The notes below the pieces were generated by a model. That model was given only the letters and a program-made list of their open reading frames with translations. It was not told the origin of the DNA and searched no databases. A stretch of DNA of 64,000 nt from an uncultured Oscillibacter sp. (lineage in GTDB: Bacteria; Bacillota; Clostridia; Oscillospirales; Oscillospiraceae). Made by a program: the position numbers and the translations under genes. The stretch lies in contig CANAWG010000010.1 of the NCBI GenBank assembly GCA_947365245.1, positions 1 through 64,000 on the forward strand, read 5' to 3'. Shown here piece after piece: positions 21,439 to 41,294 of the stretch (position 1 is its first letter; each line of letters begins with the position of its first letter).

Positions 21439-21836
21439 TCACCCGCGCTCCGCGGAGATGCACACCGCGTGGCAGATGCCGGGGATGGACTCCCCCTGAA
21501 AGCTGGAGGTGGGGGAGAGCAGGGCGCCGGTGGGGGCGAAGACGATCTTCTTCCACCTGCCCCGCTGCATCTCCGTGAGAAGGTATCCGTTGAGCACGGA
21601 GGCGGAGCAGCCGCAGCCGGAGGCCCCGGCGTGCATATCCTGGCCGTCCCGGTCGTAGAGCAGCAGCCCGCAGTCTTGAAAGTTCTCCCCCAGCTCCACG
21701 CCATCCCGGGAGAAGAAATCCCGGACAATGCCGTGGCCCAGCTCCCCCAGGTCGCCGGTGATGACGAGGTCGTAGTCCTTGGGGCTGGTCCCGGTGTCCC
21801 GGAAAAAGGCGGAGAGGGTGTCGTAGGCGGCGGGGG
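21439..21836 (-). CDS. spoVAD: SpoVAD, C-terminal part of an interrupted gene
   Basis: Encodes the last ~130 residues of the stage V sporulation protein SpoVAD, which binds dipicolinic acid during spore maturation. Landmarks shared with the family: DYDLVITGDL, DCGLLLYDRDGQD, the AGASGCGCSA motif and GALLSPTSSFQGESIPGICHAV. The segment has no start of its own; upstream of the core at 21830-21836 the frame reads into element DNA. It lines up with the family exactly where the N-terminal part at 41288-41916 stops (…AMAPA | AYDT…). Joining the two at the shared 7-bp core gives 1020 bp, 339 aa, against 338 aa for Bacillus subtilis SpoVAD. Confidence 0.92.
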
Positions 21837-21852
21837 AAGAAAGGCGATTAGG
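21830..21852. other. left junction of the spoVAD element (core plus inverted arm)
   Basis: Core GCGGGGG (21830-21836), a 9-base spacer, then arm GATTAGG (21846-21852) inside the element. The same core recurs at 41288, and the arm is inverted at 41273. Confidence 0.8.
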
Positions 21853-21995
21853 CCCATAGGACCTCTTGCGCTCCGCCTCGCTGTGAAAAGGGGACACGCC
21901 TTTGCGCATGAGGCTTTTGCACGTTGCTGCCGGCTGCCCCGAAGAAGCGGGAAAACAGCGTGTTCAGAAGCGGGCTGCGTGTTTGCGCCGCAGGC

Positions 21996-23684
21996 TCAGC
22001 CCGCTCTGGAGGGCTTTTTCCGCTCCTCCAGCAGATCCAGCAGACGCTGGTATTCATCCTGATATTTAAACTCGATGGTGATGCTGCCGCCCTCGTGAAC
22101 GTAGATCATCTCCACCAGCTCAACGATGACCTCCCGCGTCAGCTCCGTGATGTTGCGGTGCTTTGTAAAATGGGTGATGAATTGGTTTTCGCCGTCTGCC
22201 GTGTCCTTGTATTGCCTGATCTCCTCTTTGATGCTGGCGATGGAATGCTCAATCTGCGCCAGCTGGCCGTCAAATCGTTCTTTCAGCGCAAGGTATTCAC
22301 CCTTGGAGATCACGCCGGATTTCCAGTCTGGATAGAGGTCGATCTTCAGCTGGGAGATTTTCGCGTGTTCTTTCTCCCGCGCCTCCAGCATTGCCTCCAG
22401 GCGGGAGGATCTGCGGGCCCTGACGTGTTTCCGCCTGAGGTCCTGCAGCAGCTCGTCCATGGAGACGGCCAGCCGGATCTGGGCCTGTATGGTTGCGAGG
22501 ACGGCCTGGTACAGCTTTTCCTCCCGGATGGTGTGCTTTGTGCAGGCGGCCCGGTCGCCCTTGCGAAACGTCTGACAGACGTAATAGTAATATTTTTTGC
22601 GGGGCTGAACGACCGTCTTTTTCGCCATGGCGCGCCGGCAGTCCGCACAGCGAAGATAGCCCCCGAACATGCTGACATGATTCACGCCCGGAGAGGTCCG
22701 CGTGTCGCGCCGGAGAAGCTGCTGCGCCGTCTCGAACTGTTCCCGGGAGACGATGGCCTCGTGGGTATCCGGGACGATTACCCAATCCTCCTCCGGGACA
22801 TTGACGCAGACATGGACCTTGTAGCTTTTGATCTTTGTCTTGTTTTGAACCATGTCCCCCGTGTAAACGCGGTTTTTCAGGATTCGCTTTACAGAGGAGT
22901 CGGGCCAGAGGCCGTCACAGAGTTCGCCGGCGGGATGCCGGTAGTCGAATCCCAGCTGTTTTTTGTACATGGACGGACTCGGGATGCCCAGCTGATTCAG
23001 CCTTTTCGCGATGCCGATGATGCTCATTCCGCCCAGGAACCACTGGAAAATGTCCCGGACAACCTCGGCCGCCGCCGGATCGACCACCAGGTGGTGATGG
23101 TCCTCCGGGTCCTTGAGATACCCGTAGGATGCGAAAGAGCCGATGAATTCTCCCTTGCTTCGCTTCCGGTCCAGAGAGGACCGGACCTTGTTGGAGATGT
23201 CCCGGCAGTACTCGTCGTTCATCACGTTTTTGAAAGAGACCAGGGCGTTGTTGATGGAGGCCGGGTCCTTTACGCTGTCGATGTGATCCACAACGGAAAT
23301 AAAGCGGATATTCAGCAGCGGGAAGATCATCTCCAGATACTGTCCGACCAGGATGTAATTTCGCCCGAGCCGGGACAGGTCCTTTACAATGATGCAGTTT
23401 ACAGCGCCGGACTTCATATCGTCCATCATCCGCTCAAAATCCGGCCGCGCGAAATTTGTTCCGGTCCAGCCGTCGTCAATATACTCGCCGGCGAAGACGA
23501 TATCTTCGTTCTGCTCCACATATTCGTGGGTGATGTCTTTCTGTGTGCCGATGCTGTCGCTCTCCTCTTTGTCACCATCCTCTCTTGAGATCCGCAGGTA
23601 TTCGGCGGCCCTCCATTGGACGGAAGTCCGGGCGGCGCCCTGCCTGCGTTCTAAATATTCGTCATACCGGTTTCTTGGAGCCAT
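21996..23684 (-). CDS. large serine recombinase of the spoVAD element
   Basis: A 562-aa large serine recombinase. The resolvase domain has catalytic Ser33 (YLRISRE) and VKDLSRLGRNYI near residue 100. It is followed by the recombinase domain (GSFASYGYLKD), a zinc ribbon (Cys346, Cys349, Cys370, Cys381) and a long C-terminal coiled-coil region. The layout is that of TnpX and the skin-element enzymes. It lies next to one end of the interrupted gene and reads toward it, the usual place for the enzyme that integrates and excises. RBS GGGAGG precedes the ATG. It is not closely similar to the two recombinases at the tRNA element. Confidence 0.92.
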   Translation of the reverse strand: MAPRNRYDEYLERRQGAARTSVQWRAAEYLRISREDGDKEESDSIGTQKDITHEYVEQNEDIVFAGEYIDDGWTGTNFARPDFERMMDDMKSGAVNCIIVKDLSRLGRNYILVGQYLEMIFPLLNIRFISVVDHIDSVKDPASINNALVSFKNVMNDEYCRDISNKVRSSLDRKRSKGEFIGSFASYGYLKDPEDHHHLVVDPAAAEVVRDIFQWFLGGMSIIGIAKRLNQLGIPSPSMYKKQLGFDYRHPAGELCDGLWPDSSVKRILKNRVYTGDMVQNKTKIKSYKVHVCVNVPEEDWVIVPDTHEAIVSREQFETAQQLLRRDTRTSPGVNHVSMFGGYLRCADCRRAMAKKTVVQPRKKYYYYVCQTFRKGDRAACTKHTIREEKLYQAVLATIQAQIRLAVSMDELLQDLRRKHVRARRSSRLEAMLEAREKEHAKISQLKIDLYPDWKSGVISKGEYLALKERFDGQLAQIEHSIASIKEEIRQYKDTADGENQFITHFTKHRNITELTREVIVELVEMIYVHEGGSITIEFKYQDEYQRLLDLLEERKKPSRAG

Positions 23685-23732
23685 ACAATACCTCCCTGAT
23701 GGCTGTATGATACGGCTGCATTACACGAACCC

Positions 23733-23760
23733 ATTATAGCATACGGCCGGGCTGAATCAA
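23733..23760 (-). promoter_or_regulatory. sigma-A-type promoter of the recombinase gene
   Basis: On the minus strand TTGATT (23755-23760), 16 bases, then TATAAT (23733-23738), about 50 bases upstream of the recombinase start. A CATACAG closer to the gene (23703-23709) vaguely resembles a sporulation sigma-E -10 box, but no matching -35 is convincing. Confidence 0.65.
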
Positions 23761-24005
23761 ACGAATTTCGATAACAAACGGCAGATTCTCTGCTGTAAAG
23801 AATCCCCTGCGGTGCCGGAAAATACCACGTGAACGCCGACGTCGCCCACGCGGAAGAGGTACGGATTCCCAACGGCGTTCAAAAAGCTCTCCATCCTCGC
23901 CTGCGCGTCTGGGCCGGAGATAGAGACGCCGGAAATGTCCGGCAGAAGACTTTTGTCGAAAGAGGCGGAGTGAAAGTGCGCCTCGGCCTGCGCTTTGTAA
24001 TCCAA
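23757..24005 (-). CDS. DUF6870-like small protein of recombinase-type elements
   Basis: An 82-aa protein. The pattern DISGVSISGPDAQARMESFL, then GNPYLFRVGDVGVHVVFSG resembles the DUF6870 small proteins I know from clostridial mobile elements with large serine recombinases (recall, not searched). Function unknown. The start is TTG with AAGGGGG eight bases upstream. It lies just upstream of the recombinase gene on the same strand, and its 3' end overlaps the recombinase promoter. That makes it a candidate directionality factor for excision, by position only. Confidence 0.6.
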   Translation of the reverse strand: MDYKAQAEAHFHSASFDKSLLPDISGVSISGPDAQARMESFLNAVGNPYLFRVGDVGVHVVFSGTAGDSLQQRICRLLSKFV

Positions 24006-24073
24006 GGTTCATCCCCCTTAAAGGTTTACTCTATCGTACCCGCAATATCCGCATTTCATCCGAATTTTTCCTC

Positions 24074-24696: not shown

Positions 24697-26172
24697 TCAC
24701 TGGCCGGCGGTCCCGGACTTCAGTTCCCCGTCAATACGCCGCGCCGTGTCCTCCGGGACCCACACCGCCGCGGAGCCGCCGCTGACCGGGAAGCTCTCCG
24801 TGCCGTTTTCGGGGATGAGGATTCGCTCCCCCCGGCCTCCCAAAAGATCCACGAAAGTGGTTCCGGCCATCCCTGTCCCCACGCACATCCGCTTGCCGCC
24901 GCCGGGGCCGTCGGTGAGGACCACCGCCATGGCGGAGCCCTCTCCCAGCCTCGTCCAGCCGATGATGTCCGGGTCGTCCAGATAGTCGGTCTGCTGGCCG
25001 TGGGCGCAGTATTTTCGGGCCAAAAGCAGCTTCGGCAGCGCCTCCACCGGCTGGATGCGGTCATGGGGAATCCCGTAGAGGTCCCCGTAGAACACGCAGG
25101 GAACCCCCTCCTGCCGCAGGAGGATGCAGGCGTAGGCCAGAGGCTTGCACCACGGGGAAACCCAGGACTGGAGAGCCTGGCCGGGCTGTGTGTCGTGGTT
25201 GTCCACAAAGGTGACCGCCTGATGGGGGCGGACGCCTGTCAGCGTCCCCTGAAACAGATTCCGCAGGTCCATGGCGCCCCCGGCGCCGGAGAGCTGGTGA
25301 AACTTGAAGTGGAGGGGGACGTCCAGGAGGCGCATCACCTGTCCGCTCTGGTCCAGATAGGAGGTGAGGGACTGGAGGTCCCCGTTCCAGTACTCCCCGA
25401 AGGCCGGGAGAGGCTTGCCGGACGACCGGCGAAGGGCTTGAAGCCAGTGGGTGAAATAGGAGGCGCGGATGTGCTTTACCGCGTCCAGCCGAAAGCCGTC
25501 CACGCCGGTGGTCTCCAGATACCACTTCCCCCAGCGGTCCAGCTCTTCGATTACCTTGGGGGCGCTCATGTCCAGGTCCGCCCCCATCAGGTAATCGTAG
25601 TTGCCGAACTCCCGGTCCACCTGGCTGTCCCAGTCCTTGCCCTCAAACCGGTAGACGGCGGAGGAATTCCGCTTGCTGTCCCAGTCCACGCCGTCAAAGC
25701 AGGTCCAGTCCCATTGGAAGTCGGAGTATTTTCCCCCGCGGCCGGGGAAGGTGAATTTGGTCCAGGCGGTGATGGGCACGGCGGGGGCGCCGCTCTGATT
25801 CCGGTCATCTCCGGCAGAGGCCCGGGCCCGGACCTCCTCGCACGCATCCGCCCCCATGCGGTGGTTGAGAACGATGTCCGCGTAGACCTTCACGCCGCTT
25901 TTGTGGAGGGCCCGGATGGCGGACAGGTACTCCTCCCGGGAGCCGTATTTGGTGGCGACGCTTCCTTTCTGGTCGAACTCTCCCAGGTCATACAGGTCGT
26001 AGACGCCGTAGCCGACGTCCTCCCGGCCCCGATACCCCTTGTAGGCGGGGGGAAGCCAAACGCCGGTAAAGCCCAGAGCGGCCAGATGGGGGGCGTCCGC
26101 CGCCGCCCGCCGCCAGTGCCCGCCGTCGGCGGGGAGGTACCATTCAAAATACTGCAGCAGTGTCTCTTCCAT
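24697..26172 (-). CDS. cytoplasmic alpha-amylase (GH13, AmyA-like)
   Basis: A 491-aa GH13 alpha-amylase without signal peptide, so probably intracellular. It has the catalytic triad: nucleophile Asp230 in GFRLDAVKH, acid/base Glu260 in FGEYWNGD, and transition-state Asp327 in FVDNHDTQ, plus YADIVLNHRMGAD in the N-terminal barrel. The opening LLQYFEWYLPADGGHW is that of AmyA-type enzymes that cut maltodextrin or glycogen. The start is the ATG at 26172, with GGAGAAA upstream. It lies 41 bp after a small membrane-protein gene, with one likely promoter at 26521-26548. Its neighbour glgA makes glycogen, so the pair may manage internal glucan. Confidence 0.9.
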   Translation of the reverse strand: MEETLLQYFEWYLPADGGHWRRAAADAPHLAALGFTGVWLPPAYKGYRGREDVGYGVYDLYDLGEFDQKGSVATKYGSREEYLSAIRALHKSGVKVYADIVLNHRMGADACEEVRARASAGDDRNQSGAPAVPITAWTKFTFPGRGGKYSDFQWDWTCFDGVDWDSKRNSSAVYRFEGKDWDSQVDREFGNYDYLMGADLDMSAPKVIEELDRWGKWYLETTGVDGFRLDAVKHIRASYFTHWLQALRRSSGKPLPAFGEYWNGDLQSLTSYLDQSGQVMRLLDVPLHFKFHQLSGAGGAMDLRNLFQGTLTGVRPHQAVTFVDNHDTQPGQALQSWVSPWCKPLAYACILLRQEGVPCVFYGDLYGIPHDRIQPVEALPKLLLARKYCAHGQQTDYLDDPDIIGWTRLGEGSAMAVVLTDGPGGGKRMCVGTGMAGTTFVDLLGGRGERILIPENGTESFPVSGGSAAVWVPEDTARRIDGELKSGTAGQ

Positions 26173-26902: not shown

Positions 26903-28789
26903 ATGGCGAAAACGAAAGACACGGGGGCCGGCAAAAAGAGGGCGGTTCCCCTGGAAAAAACTACGGTGAAGCACAGGGCGCAGACTGACGGGGCGGGCAG
27001 GGAAAAAACGCCGCCGGAAGAGCTGAAAACAAAGGCGGCCGTGAAAGCGGCGGAGCTCCCCGTGGAAGCGCCGCCGGTGCCGCAGCCCGCGGCTGCCCCG
27101 GAGAGGCCCTCGGCGGCAAAAGCCTCCGCGGCGGAGCCCGAGGCGTCCGCGGCGAAGGCCAAGGGACCCGCCGCGAAAGCCCCCGCGGCAAAGACCAAGG
27201 CTTCTGCGGCAAAGGCCCCCGCGGAAAAAGTTCCCGCGGGGAAAACCCCCGCGGCGGAAATCGGCGAGCCCGCCGCCGAGGAGCCGCCGGTGAAAGAGCC
27301 CGCGGAACCGGCCGCGCCGGAGGCGGTCAGCGCCTCCCCCAGAAGAAGCGTCGCCTTCATCGGCTCGGAGTGCTATCCGTTTGTCAAGACCGGGGGCTTG
27401 GGCGACGTGATGTACGCCCTCCCCAAGGCGCTGGTGAAGCAGAACTGCGACGTCAAGGTCATCCTTCCCCGGTACAAGTGCATCCCCTGGGAATATCAGG
27501 AGAAGATGATCTACCGGGGCGCTTTCAACATGAATCTCTGCGCCGACGGCCGGTCCTATTACGTGGGCATCATGGAGTATGTCTGGGACGGCGTGGTATA
27601 CGATTTCATCGACAACGAGGAGTTCTTCAACAGTGGAAACCCGTATACCAATCTGGTGGACGATATCCCCAAGTACTGCTATTTTGCCAAGGCGGCCCTG
27701 GCGGCGCTGAACTACATGGATTGGATCCCCGACGTCATCCACTGCCACGACTGGCAGGCGGCGCTGGTGCCCGTTTTCCTGCGGACGCTGTTTGCCGGCA
27801 CGAAGCTCACCAGGGCGGAGACTGTTTTGACCATCCACAACCTCCGGTTCCAGGGGATCTACAACATTCCCACCATTCGCTATTGGACCGGTCTGCCGGA
27901 TTACGTCTTTAACAAGGACGCACTAAAGACAGGGTATCAGGACGCCAACATGCTCAAGGGCGGCCTGGCCTACGCCAACATGATCACCACGGTGAGTCCC
28001 ACCTACGCCGGCGAGATTCAGACCGCTTTCTACGGGGAGACGCTGGACGCCCACCTGCGCTATCACGCCGGGAAGCTGCGGGGCATCATCAACGGCATTG
28101 ACTACGACATCTGGAACTCCAGCACCGACCAGCGGCTCCACGCGGGCTACGACGTCTCCAGCGTCCTGGAGAAAAAGAAAGAGAACAAGGTCAAGCTCCA
28201 GGAGGAGCTGGGCCTGGAGCGGGACGAGGGCAAGTTTGTCATCGGCCTCATCTCCCGGCTGACGGATCAAAAAGGCCTGGATCTGATCAACGCCATTCTC
28301 CCCCGGGTGATGGACGGGAACACCCAGGTGGTGGTCCTGGGTACGGGAGACCGGGTCTACGAGGACTCTTTTCGGTACTACGAGAACGCGTACAAGGGGA
28401 GCGTTTGCTCCAGCATCATGTACGACGAGACCCGGGCCCACAGGATCTACGCCGGAGCCGACGCCCTGCTGGTCCCGTCCCGGTTTGAGCCCTGCGGCCT
28501 GACCCAGCTGATCGCCATGCACTACGGCACGGTGCCCATCGTCCGGGAGACCGGCGGGCTGAAGGACACGGTGGAGCCCTACAACATGTTCTCCGACAGC
28601 GGCAACGGCTTCACCTTTGACCGCTACGAGCAGGGCCTCCTGCTGGACGCCGTCAACCGGGCCAAGACGCTGTACTTCGAGCACCGGAACTGCTGGGACA
28701 AGATGGTGCGGCGGGATATGGAAAAAGACCTCTCCTGGGAGAACTCCGCGAAGCAGTATAAGGAGCTGTATCTGGAGCTGACCAGGTAG
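26903..28789 (+). CDS. glgA: glycogen synthase with a long Ala/Lys/Pro-rich N-terminal extension
   Basis: A 628-aa protein. Residues from about 147 onward form a complete GT5 glycogen synthase: YPFVKTGGLGDV (ADP-glucose binding), HCHDWQAAL, GLISRLTDQKGLD and SRFEPCGLTQL with the catalytic Glu. It adds glucose from ADP-glucose to alpha-1,4-glucan. The first ~145 residues are unlike normal GlgA, a low-complexity tail of Ala, Lys, Pro and Glu with repeats such as AAKAPA and EKVPAGK, like a histone-H1-type or surface tether tail. The start ATG at 26903 has AGGAGG; the frame gives no later start before the enzyme domain with a comparable site. No glgB/C/D neighbours occur here. Confidence 0.9.
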   Translation: MAKTKDTGAGKKRAVPLEKTTVKHRAQTDGAGREKTPPEELKTKAAVKAAELPVEAPPVPQPAAAPERPSAAKASAAEPEASAAKAKGPAAKAPAAKTKASAAKAPAEKVPAGKTPAAEIGEPAAEEPPVKEPAEPAAPEAVSASPRRSVAFIGSECYPFVKTGGLGDVMYALPKALVKQNCDVKVILPRYKCIPWEYQEKMIYRGAFNMNLCADGRSYYVGIMEYVWDGVVYDFIDNEEFFNSGNPYTNLVDDIPKYCYFAKAALAALNYMDWIPDVIHCHDWQAALVPVFLRTLFAGTKLTRAETVLTIHNLRFQGIYNIPTIRYWTGLPDYVFNKDALKTGYQDANMLKGGLAYANMITTVSPTYAGEIQTAFYGETLDAHLRYHAGKLRGIINGIDYDIWNSSTDQRLHAGYDVSSVLEKKKENKVKLQEELGLERDEGKFVIGLISRLTDQKGLDLINAILPRVMDGNTQVVVLGTGDRVYEDSFRYYENAYKGSVCSSIMYDETRAHRIYAGADALLVPSRFEPCGLTQLIAMHYGTVPIVRETGGLKDTVEPYNMFSDSGNGFTFDRYEQGLLLDAVNRAKTLYFEHRNCWDKMVRRDMEKDLSWENSAKQYKELYLELTR

Positions 28790-29534: not shown

Positions 29535-30803
29535 TCATGAGATGTTCAGCAGCACATTCAGGGAAAATCTCCCCCCGCTCTTTTCCGTCAGCACCGCCCC
29601 GTGATACTTCTCCGCCACCGCCTTGATACTGGAAAGCCCGGTCCCGGCAGGCGGCAGAGGGGTGTCCGGGCAGGTGTTCTCAAAGGTCAGCATACAGAAA
29701 TCCCCCTGCCGCTTTCCGCTGATGCGGAGAGACTTTGCCCCGCCGCCGGACTGGCAGGCCGCGATGGCGTTGTCCAGGGCGTTGGCGAAGACGACGCACA
29801 GGTCCAGATCGTCGATCCCGCAGGGCCTGGGCAGAACCAGGGACACCTCCGCCGCGATTCCCTCCGCCAGTCCCAGCTTCTCCCCCAGCAGGATATCCAC
29901 CACCGGATTGCCGGTCCGGTAAGGGAAAGACAGCGCCTGCGAGGCGGCCTCCAATTTTTTCAGATACGCCCGGCCCTCCTCCGGTTTCCCGCTCCGGAGC
30001 AGACCGTCCAGAACGGACAGGTGGTTTTTGATGTCGTGGCGAAAGGCCGTTGTCTGCTGGCAGCGGGCCTGGGCCTCGGCGATATAGACTTTCTGCGCCT
30101 GGGCCGCCTGGGTCAAAGCGCGCAGCTCCGCCTGGGCCTGGAAGCCCTGACAGAGCTGGCGGTATGCGTACAGGGTGCAGAGCAGCGCCGCCAGTCCCAT
30201 CCCTTGCAGAATCAGCAGAGTGCCGTGCCTGCCCGCCTCCTCCAGGGAGATGGAGGGGGACAAAAAGCTGTAGGCGGTGCGGAGAATATACAGTTCCGCC
30301 GCGAAGAAAAACACGCTGGGAAGCAGCAGCAGCCCCACGCGGGGCGTTTGGCCGTCCTCCGCCCGGGCCAGGAGCTTCCGCACCCCGCGGCAGCAGCAGA
30401 CGCACAGCCCAAAGTAGAGAGCCTGCGCCGCCAGAAGCAGCGGATATAACAGCGGACTTCCAATAAAACGGGGGAAGAGCGCCGCCTCCAGAGAGTTGAC
30501 GATCCCGAAGGAGAGCTGCGAGACATAGAAGGCCAGCAGGGCGGCCAGCCAGGACACGGACCGCTGATTTCCCATCCCGAGCCGGCTGACGGCGTACAGC
30601 GCCAGCACTCCCGCGCCGATGGAGAGAATCTCGCTCAGAGCGAGGCGCAGAGAGATCAGCTGGATGGCGCCGAGGAGCAGGCAGTAGACCGCAAAGTGCC
30701 GGGGCTTTCGCTCTTTTCCGGTGAGGCGGCTGACGAAGAAAAAGTGCATCACGGCCTGTCCCGCCAGAGTCAGGCCGTCCAGAAACAGACTGAAAAGCTC
30801 CAT
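29535..30803 (-). CDS. AgrC-like GHKL sensor histidine kinase
   Basis: A 422-aa sensor. The N-terminal ~190 residues carry six or so hydrophobic helices. A linker and the dimerisation segment FRHDIKNHLSVLDGL follow, with the phospho-accepting His. The GHKL ATPase domain has NALDNAIAAC and GTGLSSIKAVAEKY boxes. Such kinases usually sense a peptide signal. The start is the ATG at 30803, nine bases after GAGAGGG; the ATG three codons earlier is too close to that site. It forms a pair with the LytTR regulator whose stop is 1 base upstream. No AgrD-like peptide gene was seen nearby. Confidence 0.85.
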   Translation of the reverse strand: MELFSLFLDGLTLAGQAVMHFFFVSRLTGKERKPRHFAVYCLLLGAIQLISLRLALSEILSIGAGVLALYAVSRLGMGNQRSVSWLAALLAFYVSQLSFGIVNSLEAALFPRFIGSPLLYPLLLAAQALYFGLCVCCCRGVRKLLARAEDGQTPRVGLLLLPSVFFFAAELYILRTAYSFLSPSISLEEAGRHGTLLILQGMGLAALLCTLYAYRQLCQGFQAQAELRALTQAAQAQKVYIAEAQARCQQTTAFRHDIKNHLSVLDGLLRSGKPEEGRAYLKKLEAASQALSFPYRTGNPVVDILLGEKLGLAEGIAAEVSLVLPRPCGIDDLDLCVVFANALDNAIAACQSGGGAKSLRISGKRQGDFCMLTFENTCPDTPLPPAGTGLSSIKAVAEKYHGAVLTEKSGGRFSLNVLLNIS

Positions 30804-30804
30804 A

Positions 30805-32329: not shown

Positions 32330-32344
32330 GCCGCACCCTCTTTC

Positions 32345-32405
32345 GTTGTTTTAACAACAGACTTTCGCTTCAAATGATACTATACTGCGCTTGTAAAGAC
32401 AAGCG
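32345..32405 (+). promoter_or_regulatory. two TTGT-N4-ACAA boxes and promoter between crp-like gene and redox operon
   Basis: GTTGTTTTAACAAC (32345-32358) and CGCTTGT-AAAG-ACAAGCG (32388-32405) share the form TTGT-N4-ACAA. A plus-strand TATACT at 32381-32386 predicts a start near 32393. That puts the first box at about -41.5, the class II activator position, and the second over the start, a repressing position. No good -35 box is present, as expected for an activated promoter. Confidence 0.65.
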
Positions 32406-32446
32406 AAACGGCTTGCTTTTCTCATTCAGAATATTGGAGGTGCGGC

Positions 32447-32944: not shown

Positions 32945-33637
32945 ATGATTCGGAAAATTATCAGGATTGACGGGGAGAAATGCAATGGCTGCGGAGCTTG
33001 CGCGGCGGCCTGCCACGAGGGCGCCATCGGCATGGTGGACGGAAAGGCAAAGCTCCTGCGGGATGACTACTGCGACGGGCTGGGGGACTGCCTGCCGGCC
33101 TGCCCCACGGGCGCGATCACCTTTGAGGAGCGGGAGGCGGCGGCCTACGACGAGAACGCCGTTTTGGAGAATAAGAAGAGATCGGAGGCGGCCCGCGGCG
33201 GCTGCCCCGGAAGCCGGCTCCGCCGGATGGAGCGCCGCCCGGAGTGCGAAGCCGCCGGGCCGGAAAAGGCGGCCTCCCAGCTGGGGCAGTGGCCCTGCCA
33301 GCTCAAGCTTGTGCCGGTCAACGCCCCCTATTTTGAGGGCGCCAGGCTGCTGGTCGCGGCGGACTGCACGGCCTTTGCCTGCGCGAGCCTGCACCGGGAG
33401 TTTATGAAGGGCAGGATTACGCTGATCGGGTGCCCCAAGCTGGACGATGTGGACTACAGCGAAAAGCTGACGGAGATCATCCGGAACAACGACATCCAAA
33501 GCGTCACGGTCGTCCGCATGGAGGTCCCCTGCTGCGGCGGGTTGGAGCTGGCCGTGAAGAAGGCGCTCCAGGCCAGCGGCAAGTTCATTCCCTGGCAGGT
33601 GGTGACCATTTCCGTGGATGGGAACATTTTGGCCTAA
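32945..33637 (+). CDS. two-cluster 4Fe-4S ferredoxin-domain protein
   Basis: A 230-aa protein. The N-terminal ferredoxin domain has KCNGCGACAAACHEGAI and YCDGLGDCLPACPTGAI, ligands for two [4Fe-4S] clusters. The C-terminal ~130 residues contain CTAFACA, GCPKLDD and PCCGG, more Cys residues that may hold a third cluster. The family occurs with the PNPOx-like protein next to it. It probably passes electrons in an oxygen-sensitive pathway. RBS GGGAGG precedes the ATG. Confidence 0.82.
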   Translation: MIRKIIRIDGEKCNGCGACAAACHEGAIGMVDGKAKLLRDDYCDGLGDCLPACPTGAITFEEREAAAYDENAVLENKKRSEAARGGCPGSRLRRMERRPECEAAGPEKAASQLGQWPCQLKLVPVNAPYFEGARLLVAADCTAFACASLHREFMKGRITLIGCPKLDDVDYSEKLTEIIRNNDIQSVTVVRMEVPCCGGLELAVKKALQASGKFIPWQVVTISVDGNILA

Positions 33638-33668
33638 GAGGTCGAATCAGAAGTGAGGCGGTACGGGT

Positions 33669-34010
33669 ATGAACGATATGAGCGGGAAGATGAAGAATAT
33701 CAGCAAGGCGGAGGTCCTGGTTTTGAAGGACCAGATCGCCTGTCAGGAGGGCCAGGTGGTCAGCAGGACGCTGGCGCAGAACAAGGCCCTGAGCGTCACG
33801 CTGTTCTCCTTTGCCAAGGGCGAGGAGATCAGCGCCCACGAATCCGGCGGAGACGCCTTTGTTATATGCCTGGAGGGGGTCGGCAGAATCACCATTGACG
33901 GCGCGGATTACTTTCTTCACGAAGGAGAGTCCATTGTCATGCCCGCGGGGCATCCCCACGCGGTTTACGGCGAGGAGGCGTTTAAGATGCTGCTGGTCGT
34001 GGTGTTTTGA
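33669..34010 (+). CDS. small cupin protein
   Basis: A 113-aa single cupin. Motif 1 (SAHESGGDAFVICLEG) and motif 2 (GESIVMPAGHPHAVYG) supply His and Glu metal ligands. It is the last gene of the redox operon. Role unknown; such proteins often bind a small metabolite or metal. Confidence 0.82.
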   Translation: MNDMSGKMKNISKAEVLVLKDQIACQEGQVVSRTLAQNKALSVTLFSFAKGEEISAHESGGDAFVICLEGVGRITIDGADYFLHEGESIVMPAGHPHAVYGEEAFKMLLVVVF

Positions 34011-34085: not shown

Positions 34086-34131
34086 TGTGATGATATGCGG
34101 CTGTTTTGGAACCTCGCGCAGCGATCCATGC

Positions 34132-35424
34132 TCAGGCCTCCTTTTCCATCATGATCTCCAGGATGGTCCGGTCCGTCTGCACCATGCCCGGCGTGCTGAC
34201 CCGGCCCATGTTGCGGATGGCCGCCTCAGGCGTTGCGCCGCAGATGCCGTCCGTGGCCTGGAGCACCACGTTGTCCATGGCGAGATACGCGCACATCAGC
34301 GCGGCGTTGGAGGCCGTGGCCAGCTTCAGGGCGCAGCCGATCTTGCCGCCGTCGCAGATCATGCCGGTGAGGTTTCCGCTCATGTTGATGATGCCCCAGC
34401 CAATCTGCTCATCCGTGCCGCCCATCAGCCAGATCATGGCGGCGCAGGCGGCCGTGGCCGCGGAGACGCCGCAGCCGCAGGTGGCGGACAGCTTCCCGGT
34501 GTAGAGCTTGATGTAGACGTTCAGAGCGTGGGAGAAGGCCAGGGCCCTGACCAGCTGCTCCTGGGAGGCCCCCAGGTGGCGGCCCATCTCCGCCACGGGG
34601 ATGACGGCGGTCAGGCCGTGGTTTCCGCTGCCGGCGCTGCTCATGACGGCGTAGGGGCAGCCGCTCATCCGCCCCTCGGCGCTGCTGGCCACCCGGGCCA
34701 TGGTGCGGCTGAACAGATTGTCCCCCATGCTGCCGGACTCGATCTGGTGCTTCAGCGCGCCGGCGATGCCCACGCCGGGGTTGTTGGCCAGGCCGAAGTC
34801 CGCCAGGCGCTGGTTCATCTCCACGCCCTCCAGCATGAAAGAGAGCTCCTCCGGAGAGCACTGCTCCACAACGCCCTTGATCTCCGCCACGGTCATGGTT
34901 TTCAAGCGGTCGTGGATCTCGTCCTCCCCGGCGGCGGACCAGGGCTTCTCCAGCAGGACCTCGTGGTTCCGCTTCGTCAGGATGATGTTGGAGTGGGTCC
35001 CCCGGATCTCGCTGATGCCGATGCCGGCGGTGGTGATGATCTCCGCCCGGGCGTAGAGCTGGGTCTCGTCGTGCTTGATCATCACCACCACGTGCCGGTC
35101 CTCCACCATCTGAACGGCCCGGGCGGTCACCTCGTCGTTGATGTCCTCCAGCAGCTGCAGCCCCTTTTCTGGGTTGCGGAGGCTGGCCCCCAGGGCGGCG
35201 GCGTACTTCAGCCCCACCCGGGGAAAACCGGGGATGCCCACGCTCATGCCGTTTTTGTAGATGCCGGGGTTGACCTCCATCTTCACGGAGACCACGTCTC
35301 CGCCGATGGCACGGCAGGCGTCGGCGGCGGCCAGGGCCACGCAGACCGGCTCCGTGCAGCCCAGCGCCGGGACCACCTCCTGGTGCAGCAGTTTCAGCAG
35401 CTCTTCTTTCGTGATCATATCCAT
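34132..35424 (-). CDS. L-cysteine desulfidase family protein (CyuA/YhaM-like)
   Basis: A 430-aa protein of the UPF0597/CyuA family. It shows the N-terminal [15 protein letters not shown] and the Cys-rich [17 protein letters not shown], plus [17 protein letters not shown] at the end, which supply Fe-S ligands. CyuA breaks cysteine to pyruvate, ammonia and sulfide under anaerobic conditions. A serine dehydratase-like substrate is possible. A sigma-54 promoter lies 58 bases upstream, and the divergent gene encodes a sigma-54 activator; with PatB and RidA nearby it fits cysteine catabolism. Confidence 0.82.
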
Positions 35425-35481
35425 GCTCCTCCTTTGATGATTCGGTTTCTGGCGTCTATTGTACTGTTATTCGGATAATAA

Positions 35482-35497
35482 AGCAAATTTTATGCCA
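35482..35497 (-). promoter_or_regulatory. sigma-54 promoter of cyuA-like gene
   Basis: On the minus strand TGGCAT-N5-TTGCT matches the -24/-12 consensus (TGGCAC-N5-TTGCW) except one base. It is in the right orientation and 58 bases from the start codon. A near-identical site lies before patB at 37835. Confidence 0.85.
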
Positions 35498-35551
35498 AAT
35501 AATTTCCGCCCGATTTTCCGGAAATCCCTTGCAAACGGCTGCGGTCTGTGA

Positions 35552-35563
35552 TTAACTGGTTAA
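35552..35563. promoter_or_regulatory. TTAAC-TG-GTTAA palindrome near the activator start
   Basis: It lies about 25 bp before the activator gene and about 60 bp upstream of the cyuA -24/-12 site. It shares TTAACC/GGTTAA-like half sites with the palindrome at 37658. A possible activator site. Confidence 0.4.
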
Positions 35564-35588
35564 AGAAAATGGTCAAAGGAGTGAGCTT

Positions 35589-37649
35589 GTGCCCGCCAAA
35601 AAGAAGATCTCCGTCATCGCCCTGGATCCCAGGGCGGGGGCGTCCTACTGTTCCGACATCGCAAGGCTCTTCGGAGGGGCGGCGGACATCTCCGTGTTCT
35701 CCGTGCTGGACGGCAGCGCCGCCGGGGTGCTGGACCGGGCGGATCTGTTTGTGGCCTCCACCGACGCCTACGGCTCCCCGGAGGAGTTGGTGCGCCACAT
35801 CCCCATCGACAGCCAGACCATGGCGGTGGAGGTCTCTTTCCGTTGGAGCGACCTCCGCAAGCTCAAGGAGATACCCGCCGGGAGCCGGGTGCTGTTTGTC
35901 AACATGACCCAGACCATGGCCCGGGAGGCCATTGCCCAGCTGGAGCAGTTCGGCATCACCCACATCCACTGGATCCCCTTCTACCCCGGCGCGGAGGAGG
36001 TGCCGGATGTCCATATCGCCGTCACGCCGGACGAGCGGCGCTATGTCCCGCCCTCCGTGGAGACGGTCATCGACCTGGGGCAGCGGGTCTGCACCTCCGG
36101 CATGATGATCGAGATCGCCCTGCGGCTGGGTCTGGAGTCCCTGCTGGAGGGAGAGCCGTTTCAGGAGTACGCCCGGGAGGTGGCTACCAGCAACTACAGC
36201 TTTGATCGGATGTTTGCCCGGTCCATCCGCCTGGAGAGCCAGTTTCATATTTTAATGGAGAGTCTGGAGGACGGCGTGGTGGGCGTCAACGAGAGGGGAG
36301 AGGTCTTCGCCTGCAGCCGCCGGGCGGAGGAGATGGCCTGCGTCAGCGCGCCGCTGGTCCTGGGGAAGCGGTGCGAGGAGGTCTTCCCCTTCATTCCCTT
36401 TGTCCAGTGCCTTCAAAGCCGCCAGACCTTGCCCGCCAAGGCCGTCCGGGTGGGCGGCGTCAACCTCAGCGTGGAGGTGGTGCCGGTGATCCGGCAGAGC
36501 GCCTGCATCGGCGCGTTCGCCCTGCTCCAGCGGTTCAACGACGTGGAGGCCCGGCAGAGCGAGCTGCGGGGCCAGCTTTTCCACAAGGGCCTGTGTGCCA
36601 AGTACAGCTTTGACGACGTCACGGGACAGTCGGAGGCCATCCAAAAGACCAAGGAGACCCTGAGGCGCATGGCCCGCAGTGAGAGCCCTGTCCTGCTCAT
36701 CGGCGAGACTGGCACCGGAAAGGAGCTGTTTGCCCACGCCGTCCACCAGGCGTCCCGCCGGGCAAAGGGGCCCTTTGTGGCCATCAACGTGGCGGCGTTC
36801 CCGGAGAACCTGCTGGAGAGCGAGCTGTTCGGCTATGAGGAGGGGGCTTTCACCGGGGCGAAGAAGGGCGGGCGGCCCGGCCTCTTCGAGCTGGCCCACC
36901 GGGGGACCCTCTTTTTGGATGAGGTGGAGGGCATGAGCCCCGTCCTCCAGATCAAGCTCCTCCGGGCCCTCCAGGAGCGGGAGGTCATGCGGGTGGGGGG
37001 CAATCGGATCATCCATGTGGACGTGCGCATCGTGGCCGCCACCAACGAGGCCCTGGAGCGGAAAGTCCGGGACGGGACTTTCCGCCGGGACCTCTACTAC
37101 CGCCTGAACACCCTCCCCGCCATCATTCCGCCGCTGACGGAGCGGGGGGACGACATCTTCCTTCTCGCCGAGCAGTTCCGCCGGGAGCTGGGCGGGACCT
37201 TCCAGCTGACGGAGCCGGTGCGGGACTTCTTCCGCCGCCACGCCTGGCCGGGGAATATCCGGGAGCTGCGGAACGCGGTGGAGTATTTCATCTACACCGG
37301 CCACGACCGCATCACCATGGAGGATCTGCCTCCCACGCTGTTTCTCTCCCAGGAGGCGCCCCGGCCCGCCGCCGTTCCCGCCGCGCCGAAACGGGAGGCG
37401 GCGGCTGCCTCCGACGGGTTTCAGTTCGTCCTGGGCCAGCTCTATGAGGCCTCCCAGTCCCAGAGCCCCATGGGGCGGGAAAAGCTGCTGCAGCGGGCCC
37501 GGGAGGCGCACATCCCCCTCTCCCAGCACGAGATCCGGACCATTCTCTCCGACATGGCGGAGAGGGGACTGGCCCGGGTCAGCCGGGGAAGAGGCGGCAG
37601 CCAGCTGACGCCCAAGGGGCGGGCGCTCTGGGAAAATGGACGGGAATGA
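35589..37649 (+). CDS. sigma-54-dependent transcriptional activator with PrpR-N-like sensor
   Basis: A 686-aa protein. The N-terminal ~200 residues resemble the PrpR-N sensor; a PAS-like region follows ([21 protein letters not shown]). The AAA+ domain has Walker A GETGTGKE (about 372), the sigma-54-contact motif GAFTGA (about 419) and FLDEVEG. The C-terminus is not the usual Fis-type HTH. Residues ~630-680 look like a winged helix ([21 protein letters not shown]). The start is GTG, with AAAGGAG seven bases upstream. The gene sits between two sigma-54 promoters, so it most likely activates cyuA and the patB operon. Confidence 0.88.
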
Positions 37650-37657
37650 ACTGTTTT

Positions 37658-37674
37658 AACCAATTTAATTGGTT
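37658..37674. promoter_or_regulatory. AACCAATT-T-AATTGGTT palindrome, candidate enhancer
   Basis: A perfect 8-bp inverted repeat around one base, followed at once by further GGTT and ACCAAT half-sites to 37689. It is ~170 bp upstream of the sigma-54 promoter at 37835, a normal enhancer distance. Confidence 0.5.
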
Positions 37675-37722
37675 TGACCAATAACCAATGGATGGACCGG
37701 CCGTCGCCGCGGCGGGTCTCTC

Positions 37723-37778
37723 ACAAAATCAGCAGGATGGGTCTCGGCAATCTGCCAAACCCATCCGGCTGATTTTGT
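37723..37778 (+). terminator. 20-bp inverted repeat after the activator gene
   Basis: Arms 37723-37742 and 37759-37778 match at 19 of 20 positions; the right arm ends GATTTTGT. It is a likely terminator for the activator gene, or part of the regulatory region. Confidence 0.6.
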
Positions 37779-37834
37779 CTGTTCTCACCAAATGCCAGGG
37801 ATTCTCTTCCGGAAAGCAGCGTGTGCGCCATTTT

Positions 37835-37850
37835 TGGCATAATTTTTGCT
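37835..37850 (+). promoter_or_regulatory. sigma-54 promoter of the patB operon
   Basis: TGGCAT-N5-TTGCT, 63 bases before the patB start. It differs from the cyuA site only in the spacer. Confidence 0.85.
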
Positions 37851-37912
37851 TTAATTTCCTGGCAGACGCGCACAGGCGGCTTCCAAATCTACGGAGAAAG
37901 GAATCCAAAGCG

Positions 37913-39082
37913 ATGAAATACGACTTCGACCAGATAGTGGACCGGTCTAAAAACCTCTCCGCCAAGTACGACGAGCGGGAGAAGAAGTTCGGGACCGGCG
38001 ACGTGATCCCTTTGTGGATCGCGGACATGGACTTCAGAACCGCCCAGCCCATCATTGACGCCCTGAAGCGGCGGGCGGAGGAGGGGATCTGGGGCTACAC
38101 CGCCCGTCCGGCCAGCTATTTTGAGGCGATCCGGGACTGGCAGAAGCGCCGCAACGGCTGGGAGATCGACGTCTCCCGTATGAGCTTCTGCCTGGGCGTG
38201 GTCCAGACCCTCTCCGCCATGGTCCAGCTCTACACGCCCCAGGGCGGGAACGTGCTGATCCAGACCCCGGTGTACGGCGAGTTCTACGACATGACGGAGT
38301 TCGCCGGGCGGAACGTCATCGAAAACCAGCTGGTGGAGCGGGACGGCCGCTGGACGGTGGACTGGGAGGACTTTGAGGACAAGCTCCGCGCCGCGGACCT
38401 CTTTTTGCTGTGCAGCCCCCACAATCCCCTGGGGATCGTCTGGACGGAGGAGGAACTCCGGCGGATGATGGAGCTGTGTCTCAAATACCGCGTGCTGGTG
38501 GTCAGCGACGAGATCCACTCGGACCTGGTCTTCCACGGAAAGAGGCACATCCCCACCGCGTCCCTCTCCGCCGAGATCGCAGCCAACGTGGTCACCGGCA
38601 TCTCCGGCACCAAGACCTTCAATTTGGCGGGGCTCCAGGCCAGCGCCGTGGTGTTCCCCGACCGGCATACAAAGGAGGTCTTCGACCGCTTCTGGATGAA
38701 CATGGACATCCACCGCAACAACGCCTTCTCCGTCACCGCCATGGAGGCGGCTTTCCGGGAGGGCGAGGAGTGGCTGGACCAGCTGCTGCCGTATCTCTCC
38801 GACAATTTTGACTTCGTGGTGGACTACTGCGAAAAGCGCATTCCCAAGATCCGCACCTTTGCCCCGGACGCCACGTATCTCATGTGGCTGGACTGCCGGG
38901 CGCTGGGACTGAGCAATGAACAGCTTCACGACTTCATGATTCAAAAGGCCGGCCTGGGCCTCAACGACGGCTGCGCCTTTGGCCGTCAGCTCAGCGGCTT
39001 CATGCGGCTCAACGCCGCCTGTCCCCGCAGCGTGCTGGAGCGGGCCATGCGCCAGCTGGAGGCCGCCGTCAGCGGTCTTTGA
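37913..39082 (+). CDS. PatB/MalY-like PLP-dependent cystathionine beta-lyase/aminotransferase
   Basis: A 389-aa fold-type I PLP enzyme. Markers: DVIPLWIADMDF at the N-terminus, LLCSPHNPLGIVW, VVSDEIHSDLVF and GTKTFNLAGLQAS with the PLP Lys. These are typical of MalY/PatB C-S lyases, which release sulfide or a thiol, pyruvate and ammonia from cysteine or cystathionine. The start ATG at 37913 has GGAGAAAGGA upstream. It is first in an operon with a transporter, RidA and a glutaredoxin-like protein, under a sigma-54 promoter. Confidence 0.88.
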   Translation: MKYDFDQIVDRSKNLSAKYDEREKKFGTGDVIPLWIADMDFRTAQPIIDALKRRAEEGIWGYTARPASYFEAIRDWQKRRNGWEIDVSRMSFCLGVVQTLSAMVQLYTPQGGNVLIQTPVYGEFYDMTEFAGRNVIENQLVERDGRWTVDWEDFEDKLRAADLFLLCSPHNPLGIVWTEEELRRMMELCLKYRVLVVSDEIHSDLVFHGKRHIPTASLSAEIAANVVTGISGTKTFNLAGLQASAVVFPDRHTKEVFDRFWMNMDIHRNNAFSVTAMEAAFREGEEWLDQLLPYLSDNFDFVVDYCEKRIPKIRTFAPDATYLMWLDCRALGLSNEQLHDFMIQKAGLGLNDGCAFGRQLSGFMRLNAACPRSVLERAMRQLEAAVSGL

Positions 39083-39154
39083 GAAGTCCGCGGTGAGATC
39101 CCTCCGCCGGAGGCGGAACACGATAGAGTACAAATGAGAAATGGAGATGTTATC

Positions 39155-40414
39155 ATGGCTACGCAAAACGGAAAGCAGTCTCTCTGGCAGCAGTATAAGA
39201 CCCCCATTCTCCTCCTGGGCGGCATCGCCGTCGGCTCCCTCATCGGCGTGATCGCCCCCAGCGCGGGGCAGTTCCTCAAGCCCGCCGGCGATATCTTTTT
39301 GAATCTGCTGTTCACCATCGTGGTCCCGCTGGTGTTTGTGTCCATCGCCTGCGCCGTGGGCAGTATGGCCAACATGAAGCGGCTGGGCAAAATTCTGGGG
39401 GGCACGGTGGCCGCGTTCCTGGCCACAGGCGCCATCGCCGCCGCCTGCGTCCTGACCTGGGTGAACCTGTTCAGCCCCTCCGCCGGGACCAATATCCAGC
39501 TGGCCGCCGCGGAGGTGGGAGAGCCCCAGACCGCCGCGGAGATGATCGTGGGCTCGCTGACCGTCAGCGATTTTCCGGACCTGTGGAGCAAGTCCCACAT
39601 GCTGCCCCTCATCATCTTCGCCATCATCACCGGCTTCTGTGTGGCCTCCTGCGGCGGGGAGAACAGCCCGGTGGGAAAGCTGCTGGCCAACCTCAACGAC
39701 ATCATCATGAAGTTCGTGGGCGTCATCATGACCATCGCCCCGGTGGGCCTGGGCGCCTACTTCGCCAACCTCATCGGCGAGTTCGGCCCCCAGCTGCTGG
39801 GGGACTACGGCCGGTCCATGGTGGTGTACTACCCCCTGTGCCTGCTGTACGTGGTGATTTTCTTCCCTCTGTACGCCTTTTTCTCCGGCGGAAAGCTGGG
39901 GGTCCGGCGGATGCTGAAGTACATCCTCACTCCCGCCGTCACGGCCTTTGCCACCCAGAGCTCCGCCGCCACGCTGCCGGTGAACAAGGAGGCCTGCGAC
40001 AGCATCGGCGTGCCCAAGGATGTCAGCGACCTGGTGCTGCCCATGGGCTGCACCATGCACATGGACGGCTCCGTCCTCAGCTCCATCGTGAAGATCGCGT
40101 TCCTCTTCGGCGTGTTCGACCTTCCTTTCTCCGGCGCGGGCACCTACGCCATGGCCATCGCCGTGGCCATCCTCAGCGCCTTCGTCCTCTCCGGCGCGCC
40201 CGGCGGCGGCCTGGTGGGCGAGATGTTGATCGTCAGCATGTTCGGCTTCCCCGCGGAGGCGTTTCCCCTCATCGCCACCCTGGGATTCCTGTTTGACCCC
40301 GCCGCCACCTGCCTCAACGCCGCCGGCGACACCATTGCCTCCATGATGGTCACCCGTCTGGTGGAGGGCAGGGACTGGCTTGCCAAAACGATGTCCGCCG
40401 GAGAGCGGAGCTGA
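39155..40414 (+). CDS. dicarboxylate/amino acid:cation symporter (DAACS family)
   Basis: A 419-aa membrane protein with the DAACS fold: eight transmembrane helices and two hairpin loops. Markers: ATQSSAATLPVNKEA (serine-rich HP1) and LPMGCTMHMDGSV, then GAPGGGLVGEM. Members import glutamate, dicarboxylates or cystine (TcyP). The operon context of C-S lyase and RidA suggests a sulfur amino acid. The start is the ATG at 39155, nine bases after GGAG. Confidence 0.87.
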   Translation: MATQNGKQSLWQQYKTPILLLGGIAVGSLIGVIAPSAGQFLKPAGDIFLNLLFTIVVPLVFVSIACAVGSMANMKRLGKILGGTVAAFLATGAIAAACVLTWVNLFSPSAGTNIQLAAAEVGEPQTAAEMIVGSLTVSDFPDLWSKSHMLPLIIFAIITGFCVASCGGENSPVGKLLANLNDIIMKFVGVIMTIAPVGLGAYFANLIGEFGPQLLGDYGRSMVVYYPLCLLYVVIFFPLYAFFSGGKLGVRRMLKYILTPAVTAFATQSSAATLPVNKEACDSIGVPKDVSDLVLPMGCTMHMDGSVLSSIVKIAFLFGVFDLPFSGAGTYAMAIAVAILSAFVLSGAPGGGLVGEMLIVSMFGFPAEAFPLIATLGFLFDPAATCLNAAGDTIASMMVTRLVEGRDWLAKTMSAGERS

Positions 40415-40448
40415 CCCTGCGATCATTTTTTGAAAAGGAGATATTGAC

Positions 40449-40817
40449 ATGAACGTATTGGAAACCAGCAAGGCCCCCGGGGCCATCGGCCCCTATTCCC
40501 AGGGCTATGAGGTGAACGGCCTTGTCTTCACCTCCGGCCAGATTCCCGTGAATCCCGCCGACGGCACGGTTCCCGCGGGCATCGCCGCCCAGGCGGAGCA
40601 GAGCTGCAAAAACGTGGGCGCGATTCTGGAAGCCGCCGGCGCCGGCTTCGACCGCGTCTTCAAGACCACCTGCTTCCTGGCGGACATGGGGGACTTCGCC
40701 GCGTTCAACGAGGTCTACGCCAGGTATTTCACCTCCAGGCCGGCCCGCTCCTGCGTGGCGGTGAGGGAGCTGCCCAAGGGCGTCCTGTGCGAGATTGAGG
40801 CCATCGCCGTTAAATAA
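40449..40817 (+). CDS. ridA: RidA-family enamine/imine deaminase
   Basis: A 122-aa RidA (YjgF) protein: KAPGAIGPYSQGYEVNG at the N-terminus, the catalytic Arg in RPARSCVAVRELPKG and the final CEIEAIAVK. RidA hydrolyses the 2-aminoacrylate released by PLP lyases such as PatB and by cysteine desulfidases. That reaction explains its place in this operon. RBS AAAGGAG precedes the ATG. Confidence 0.93.
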   Translation: MNVLETSKAPGAIGPYSQGYEVNGLVFTSGQIPVNPADGTVPAGIAAQAEQSCKNVGAILEAAGAGFDRVFKTTCFLADMGDFAAFNEVYARYFTSRPARSCVAVRELPKGVLCEIEAIAVK

Positions 40818-40854
40818 ACCGTGAATTAATTGGAGCTTGAAAGGAGATATACCC

Positions 40855-41106
40855 ATGAAAGTCACTGTCATTGGAAGCCACCTCTGCCCCGACACCCTGT
40901 ATGCCCTGAACCGCCTCAGCGAGGCGAAAGCGGAGATCGAGTTCAAGAACCTCTCCGCCAGCCTGCCGGATCTGAAAGTGTATTTGGCGCTGCGTCAGGA
41001 CAGCCCCGCCTATGCCGATATCCGGGCCGGCGGCGGCATCGGCATTCCCTGCTTCATTCTGGAGGACGGCACGGCCACCCGGGACCTGGATGCGGTCCTG
41101 AAATAA
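40855..41106 (+). CDS. glutaredoxin-like small protein
   Basis: An 83-aa protein with a thioredoxin-like fold: KVTVIGSHLCPDTLYALNRL (one Cys where glutaredoxins have CPYC), and GIGIPCFILEDG with the cis-Pro region. One catalytic Cys is present, so it would be a monothiol type. It is last in the patB operon; it may reduce mixed disulfides. RBS AAGGAGATATACCC precedes the ATG. Confidence 0.75.
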   Translation: MKVTVIGSHLCPDTLYALNRLSEAKAEIEFKNLSASLPDLKVYLALRQDSPAYADIRAGGGIGIPCFILEDGTATRDLDAVLK

Positions 41107-41114
41107 TCCGACAA

Positions 41115-41158
41115 ACGCCCCCGCTTTTCAGGCAGCACCTGCCGAAAAGCGGGGGCGT
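41115..41158 (+). terminator. terminator at the end of the patB operon
   Basis: A 15-bp stem (41115-41129 with 41144-41158) has an inner GGCAG/CTGCC hairpin. It closes transcription before the right junction of the spoVAD element. Confidence 0.85.
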
Positions 41159-41272
41159 GTTATACGGCGGCGGTCTTTCCGGACTTTGAGGGCGGAGCCG
41201 CGTGCAAGGACCCAAAATGAGGCTGGCGGTTCGATGTGTGTAATGCGCCATATCGGCTTTGAAATAAATTGT

Positions 41273-41294
41273 CCTAATCAAACATTCGCGGGGG
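41273..41294. other. right junction of the spoVAD element (inverted arm plus core)
   Basis: Arm CCTAATC (41273-41279), 8 bases, then core GCGGGGG (41288-41294). The arm is the inverse of that at 21846, and the core is identical to 21830. The element side is to the left. Confidence 0.8.

Follow-up and report, generated by a model that had tools for sequence, protein, structure and literature searches.

The gene spoVAD is interrupted in the window analysed here, a 64,000-nucleotide stretch of DNA from an uncultured Oscillibacter sp. (contig CANAWG010000010.1 of assembly GCA_947365245.1, positions 1 to 64,000), by a 19,451-bp insert that lies at a 7-bp core and carries a gene for a large serine recombinase (LSR). 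The 5' half of spoVAD (41288..41916, minus strand), which encodes the N-terminal part of the protein and ends in ...ATGGCCCC, matches positions 1-206 of the Pfam SpoVAD profile (E 4e-89; match at 41281-41898, minus strand), and the 3' half (21439..21836, minus strand), which encodes the C-terminal part, matches positions 202-328 (at 21457-21837, minus strand). These matches bear out the initial annotation, which had placed two halves on the same strand with a break at one family position. The core, CCCCCGC, is present twice (41288-41294 and 21830-21836), within the junction letters ...ATGGCCCC|CGCGAATGTTTGATTAGG at the 5' half and CCTAATCGCCTTTCTTCC|CCCGCCGCCTAC at the 3' half, and when the halves are joined there the reading frame runs on as MAP|AAYDT, so that the shared core and in-frame rejoining proposed initially can be read directly from the junctions. 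As they stand in the window, the N-half frame meets a stop a few codons past the break and upstream of the C half there is no start codon in frame that has a ribosome-binding site. A SpoVAD profile search of the window genome (2.82 Mb, 95% complete) found no copy beyond the two halves, and thus no sign of the second intact gene that the initial annotation had named as evidence against its proposal.

Comparison with a relative whose spoVAD is uninterrupted, which the initial annotation had called for, shows how the interruption arose. The closest relative by flank identity among those compared (G068) has an intact spoVAD on contig C19, with both flanks colinear with the window at 86-91% identity, and window segments 5090-21836 and 41288-44289 adjoin there with an overlap of exactly 7 bp. 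Because this intact locus joins the same two flanks with a 7-bp overlap, the window locus represents a clean insertion and not an inversion or a misassembly. An inversion or shuffled chromosome had first been suggested by the finding of cargo genes elsewhere in relatives and is excluded by the intact colinear locus of G068. From the junction letters, this empty site and a consensus of related junctions, we place attL, the spoVAD/element junction, at 41256..41310 (minus strand; core 41288-41294, left arm GATTAGG) and attR, the element/spoVAD junction, at 21810..21860 (minus strand; core 21830-21836, right arm CCTAATC).

The LSR gene (21996..23684, minus strand) lies 160 bp inside one junction, as originally described, and its 562-aa product matches four Pfam families (Resolvase, Recombinase, Zn ribbon and DUF4368). 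A promoter scan assigned it a sigma-A-type promoter-like site at 23733..23760 (minus strand; TTGATT-16-TATAAT, with TG before). A small ORF of 82 aa with a TTG start (23757..24005, minus strand) belongs to the family DUF6870 (PF21757, E 2.7e-14) and is our candidate for the recombination directionality factor (RDF) of the element. A DUF6870 ORF is found at the corresponding place in 75/82 LSR loci, its AlphaFold model has a pLDDT of 80.9, and no paper in the literature searched mentions the family. Among NCBIfam families the LSR comes nearest, though far under the cut-off, to the fdxN-element recombinase XisF. A phage or viral origin of the LSR was considered and rejected, the best-covered phage matches being at most 43% identical and those to viral contigs at most 41%, in a search that left plasmids aside.

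Recurrence of the split gene and its recombinase

The same break is present in at least 45 genomes across Clostridia (the window's and that of G084 included), at least 38 of them with both halves, and the recurrence of an identical break in so many genomes excludes chance. The named-genome scan used two LSRs (those of the window and of G084) and kept the best 80 loci, so the counts for Clostridia are lower bounds. Among these best 80 loci, 38 hold spoVAD, 37 of them as pieces broken near residue 213; the sole locus with one intact spoVAD and one piece is L156. One of the 38 (L122) is the isolate Oscillibacter valericigenes An890, and for the other 37 spoVAD-linked loci 36/37 genomes have broken pieces only and no intact spoVAD. 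The other 41 loci come from 39 genomes, of which 6 have only a broken spoVAD, 29 an intact one and 4 none that was found. Paired counts omit four genomes in which one half was found (G087, G109, G113 and G117) and two whose C half was not retrieved (G088 and G118); junctions were set by hand in G110, where a second ATGGC misled the script, and on the C side of G087 and of the window genome (G000). An even draw of 393 Clostridia genomes included 288 with spoVAD above the cut-off, and this split was found in 2, namely that of the window and G384, which has the coordinates of G110; two low-scoring genomes (G456 and G510) were left out of inspection. Seven further low-scoring candidates (G245, G249, G426, G503, G304, G354 and G416) were rejected because their breaks lie elsewhere or at contig edges. 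The split is thus rare, at about 1% or less of Clostridia, yet recurrent. Within the genus, a spoVAD match was found in 77/86 genomes.

An890 (G084) is split at the same site as the window, and its LSR, 50% identical to that of the window, lies 160-180 bp inside the same junction. Its flanks match the intact G083 locus by gene lengths, and its element has a GC content of 0.46-0.52 vs 0.63-0.65, encodes TraG, RecD2 and actin-like families and measures at least 58 kb if both contig arms belong to it. The element of G107 encodes a relaxase. Elements with both ends on one contig measure 4.7, 8.3, 11.8, 13.4, 13.5, 19.5, 25.2, 28.5, 34 and 53 kb, and all are in direct orientation. At one locus (L226 of G089, 2833-8800) the N half is on the strand opposite the C half, through either a post-insertion inversion or a misassembly.

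On a tree of 80 LSR sequences, from which the short LSR of L159 was omitted, all 39 spoVAD-linked rows fall inside one supported group of 56 and none among the other 24, whose genomes all have an intact spoVAD. Some unlabelled rows among the 56 end at contig edges and turned out to be in split genomes; not every member of the group sits in spoVAD, however, since six genomes are intact (G521, G522, G523, G526, G527 and G547). The junctions (35 left and 37 right) yield the attP consensus TATGGT.CT...TTGACA....CC / CC.G..AATG.TA.AATAG.ACCATA, in which inverted arms TATGGT/ACCATA surround a CC that is present in every junction and is probably the crossover dinucleotide. Rejoining is in frame at every junction pair read.

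In G119 (L156, 1376-6345), two tandem LSRs are followed by an intact spoVAD, then by attR and the host C half. The host halves are on two contigs, and the intact gene beside attR, apparently inside the element, has the site recoded from MAPAA to MSPSS; such an extra copy, to judge from the sequence, suggests a need for SpoVAD and a gene shielded from the recombinase. In G016 (L042 and L043) and G051 (L039 and L041) there are contigs whose ends coincide exactly with the spoVAD core, and a second contig of G016 runs through the core unbroken and overlaps by about 141 bp. These core-ending contigs hint at mixed excised and integrated DNA.

Selection, inheritance and promoter signals

The halves in the window have a dN/dS of 0.09-0.10 against G068 (median of 88 intact pairs, 0.18), and thus evolve as in intact relatives, but the insert may be young. 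Three other genomes (G100, G102 and G116) offer an older case. Their elements share the cargo genes glmM, glmS and a polysaccharide gene in one order, at a dS of 1.1-2.6, similar in magnitude to that of spoVAC and spoVAEb of their hosts (0.8-1.8), and their spoVAD halves have a dN/dS of only 0.03-0.06. In these lineages the split has probably been inherited over a dS of about 1 or more with the gene in use meanwhile, as far as can be judged from sequence divergence; repeated insertion of related elements is a less likely account. The selection data in relatives hence favour a functional, rejoined spoVAD. The glmM- and glmS-like genes of these elements (L214, L217-L218 and L213 for G100, G102 and G116) were recognised by translation and are normally housekeeping genes.

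The two genes next to attR differ in their promoter-like sites. A sigma-A-type site lies 42-101 bp upstream of the LSR in 36/46 loci (null 24%), with at least 10 of 12 matches in 15/46 (null 3.4%). The same scan upstream of DUF6870 gave no clear enrichment (17/46, and 3/46 at 10 or more matches; null 25% and 4.5%), and neither did scans for sigG, sigE and sigK sites. For sigma-F the pattern followed the B. subtilis consensus. A perfect sigma-F-type site precedes DUF6870 in 11/46 loci (shuffle mean 0.54, maximum 4), which span about six separate lineages by reading of the tree; perfect sites are present in 51/4,600 random windows, 1/335 other ORFs and 0/22 sister rows. The sigma-F consensus of C. 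difficile is reported to resemble closely that of B. subtilis, and a G ahead of the -10 element is conserved in it. Published work places the production of spoVA in the forespore, under sigma-G control, in both B. subtilis and C. difficile, and sigma-G control of spoVAD here rests on the papers on these two species because our own scan was blank.

Proposed forespore excision and its alternatives

The best explanation, to which we give a probability of roughly 0.7, is a spoVAD element with DUF6870-driven excision in the forespore, in-frame rejoining of the gene and later reintegration. A serine-recombinase mobile element would sit at a single attB inside spoVAD, at codons MAP|AA. In growing cells the LSR would be made from a housekeeping-type promoter and, without a directionality factor, would keep the element integrated. 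During sporulation, DUF6870 would be made in the forespore (from a sigma-F promoter in several lineages) and would switch the LSR to attL x attR excision, by which spoVAD, together with spoVAEb where the operon is contiguous, would be rejoined in frame before sigma-G transcription; the circle would reintegrate after germination. The initial annotation had proposed a developmental rearrangement or at least a precisely excisable element. That the element is precisely excisable and has cognate attL and attR sites has good support, and from the evolutionary and promoter evidence we infer its excision at sporulation, the role of DUF6870, the forespore timing and the reintegration. Since the spoVA genes are forespore genes in B. 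subtilis and C. difficile, a functional split spoVAD would need excision in the surviving cell followed by reintegration; otherwise the element would be lost at each sporulation. We also propose, tentatively and at slightly less than even odds, a reversible germline rearrangement in which sigma-F would bring about excision through DUF6870, spoVAD would load dipicolinic acid, and the constitutive LSR would reinsert the circle and so carry the element through every spore. Housekeeping cargo of the glmM/glmS type could punish failed reintegration.

A number of observations weigh against forespore excision. First, the assembly of the window genome showed neither an excised circle nor a rejoined spoVAD, the best sigma-F site of the window's own DUF6870 has two mismatches, and on the attR side of the window there is no terminator-like hairpin of the kind described below. 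Second, the sigma-F pattern was relaxed after some upstream regions had been viewed, an earlier strict test having given 2/46 (shuffle mean 0.1, maximum 1). Perfect sites are also present in 2/7 clade members with an intact or no spoVAD, and sites with one mismatch are enriched in the split loci (27/46, null 10) and in the sister rows too (12/22, null 5), so only perfect sites discriminate. An890 enters twice among the 46 loci (as L122 and as G084), and two others (L129 and L133) were admitted by LSR kinship only, with no spoVAD found in their genomes. As a positive control, the region upstream of the N halves was scanned for sigma-G sites, which showed no enrichment, and we therefore judge that scan insensitive. 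Third, DUF6870 is found also with LSRs located outside spoVAD, and the spoVAD label needs 11 changes within the LSR group of 56, so targeting does not define a single clean clade. Finally, in five pairs the LSRs are 99-100% identical over spoVAD halves that are 50-81% identical; G111 and G112, for example, have identical LSRs and SpoVAD proteins only 62-65% identical. Because elements also spread horizontally in this way, many splits may be recent.

This clear horizontal spread speaks for an ordinary mobile element, an unlikely alternative in which the LSR merely uses a conserved stretch of spoVAD as its attachment site, with no developmental control. Integrated cells would then have no SpoVAD and form poor spores, intact genes would persist in cells that were never infected or had been cured spontaneously, and the split state would turn over. 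The varied cargo, with conjugative or mobilisable types among it, fits such an element, as does the window insert, which is undatable and whose dN/dS against G068 is as expected of a recent insert. However, the apparent vertical inheritance under strong constraint in G100, G102 and G116, the sigma-F sites on the candidate directionality factor and the cost of SpoVAD loss implied by the apparently element-borne, recoded intact gene of G119 all favour forespore excision over simple mobility.

It is very improbable that these are dead loci, in which sporulation was abandoned and spoVAD is decaying. Four genomes (G090, G093, G122 and G529) have no strong sigma-G match, though they are perhaps incomplete, and the curated sigma-G cut-off is passed by 2/46 genomes, with weaker sigma factors matching in 10/14 control genomes. 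However, a SpoVAC/SpoVAEb family is found in 46/46 genomes (45 split genomes and G068), the best sigma-G-like match has an E value below 1e-102 in 42/46, and the halves are open with a dN/dS far under 1. About as improbable is a split protein, whose halves would be expressed separately and then assemble with no rejoining of DNA. Both frames are open in split genomes (G110 has two TAA past its break), but the break falls inside a strongly conserved motif, and the halves, on their sequence, show no marks of independent genes: the reading frame of the N half closes at most 44 codons past the junction in 35/35 cases (G110 being mis-anchored, with a wrong tail length), 0/37 C halves are preceded within 40 codons by an in-frame start codon that has a ribosome-binding site (only upstream starts were considered), and a terminator-like hairpin precedes attR in 11/37, compared with 2/370 shuffles. 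Many genomes have spoVAC immediately ahead of the N half and spoVAEb directly behind the C half, and the element therefore also cuts the operon. An assembly artefact, which draft genomes and the placing of some half pairs on different contigs might suggest, is in practice refuted, because the halves, flanks and insert of the window are all on one contig, An890 is a named strain and matching att arms are found in dozens of separate assemblies.

Forespore excision of a spoVAD element would have both similarities to and differences from known systems. In the skin element of C. difficile sigK (LSR CD1231, RDF CD1234), the LSR is under sigma-A and made in all cells, a small acidic RDF is under a sporulation sigma factor, and excision rebuilds a sporulation gene (PMC5025042). 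The layout at spoVAD mirrors this arrangement, with a constitutive LSR and an RDF that would set the compartment, but the forespore replaces the mother cell: sigK belongs to the mother cell, with CD1234 controlled by sigma-E/SpoIIID, whereas in the model species spoVAD belongs to the forespore, and the sites before the candidate RDF are, in several lineages, of sigma-F type. DUF6870 has a Pfam entry of its own, whereas known RDFs are described as sharing no significant similarity (PMC5025042). The comparison to skin made in the initial annotation is therefore apt for a precise element with an LSR in a sporulation gene, and fails for the cargo, which is metabolic and not prophage-like, and for the target, a forespore gene under sigma-G in model species. 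The SPbeta prophage in B. subtilis spsM likewise relies on a site-specific recombinase (SprA/SprB) and precise rejoining in sporulation, but is an active prophage excised in the mother cell only, a limitation that keeps it in the spore genome (PMC4191935). Other intervening elements in sporulation genes are gin in gerE, vfbin in spoVFB, vrin in spoVR and yin in yabG; gin, like the window insert, is non-prophage. Of their target genes, spoVFB and spoVR are described as mother-cell-expressed (PMC4191935), gerE as acting in the mother cell and yabG as under sigma-K (PMC10747680). Mobile DNA is also linked to spoVAD in spoVA2mob on Tn1546, but there an extra spoVA operon is cargo and the host gene is uninterrupted.

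The rearrangements that we found described thus concern the mother cell or mother-cell genes, that is, a cell that dies, in which loss of the element costs nothing. In contrast, spoVAD is transcribed in the forespore, which survives, and a split spoVAD under long selection would imply either reversible germline excision or some other way of making SpoVAD. No spoVAD intervening element was found in the literature searched, which covered the consulted parts of PMC6907783, PMC10747680, PMC4191935, PMC10083194, PMC5629000, PMC3789822, PMC7438776 and PMC5025042, with bioRxiv and most subscription papers outside its scope. Some intervening elements are known from multiple species or strains (PMC10747680), and the same search found none described across a class. 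The system at spoVAD is present in numerous Clostridia, including some from gut and rumen, and provides a group of LSRs with a single att consensus together with a candidate RDF family, DUF6870.

Cargo and neighbouring genes

The insert of the window carries metabolic genes rather than prophage-like content, and no relaxase, conjugation, capsid or tail family was found among the cargo genes scanned; three small ORFs matched no NCBIfam family. Beyond the DUF6870 ORF lie an alpha-amylase family gene (24697..26172, minus strand; PF00128), a glycogen/starch synthase (26903..28789, plus strand; PF08323), a GHKL sensor kinase with a LytTR response regulator (29535..31539, minus strand; by Pfam) and, by family matches, a group comprising a Crp-type regulator, a pyridoxamine oxidase-like protein, a 4Fe-4S protein and a cupin (31667..34010). 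A 7-kb block that includes amino-acid genes follows (34112..41156), with SDH_alpha, a sigma-54 activator, an aminotransferase, an SDF symporter, RidA and a small ORF. The block lies elsewhere in other genomes of the genus: a single match of at least 4.9 kb is found in at least 16/86 of them, off the contig with the spoVAD match or far away from it. The block is 86.1% identical to G077 and 83.5% to G068; since it is nearer to G077 despite window flanks that are 86-91% identical to G068, it was probably imported. The comparisons with G068 and G077 leave the left end of the element (41157..41287) between this block and attL. An insert that looks chromosomal too, judging by translations, is that of G086 (L109, 1700-4850), in which rimM-, trmD- and spoVT-like ORFs lie just upstream of the DUF6870/LSR pair. 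In G517 (L232, L233 and L234), one N half, two C halves and two related LSRs occur in one assembly, for which a double element or mixed strains are possible.

The host flanks, assigned from the relatives compared, are a symporter-type ORF (19616..21148, minus strand), which is beside the intact spoVAD in G068, and a segment (42467..44267, minus strand) kept beside spoVAD in several relatives; spoVAC and spoVAEb of the window genome are on a different contig from the split gene. A phage-type cluster at 5700-19400, with capsid, sheath and portal families, adjoins the spoVAD locus in the window and in G068. Dozens of genomes of the genus are among those listed with long matches to this cluster, which is perhaps a domesticated tail or tailocin locus. 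A second LSR gene lies near the contig start (159-1778), and its product is 29% identical to the spoVAD-linked LSR over 106 aa.

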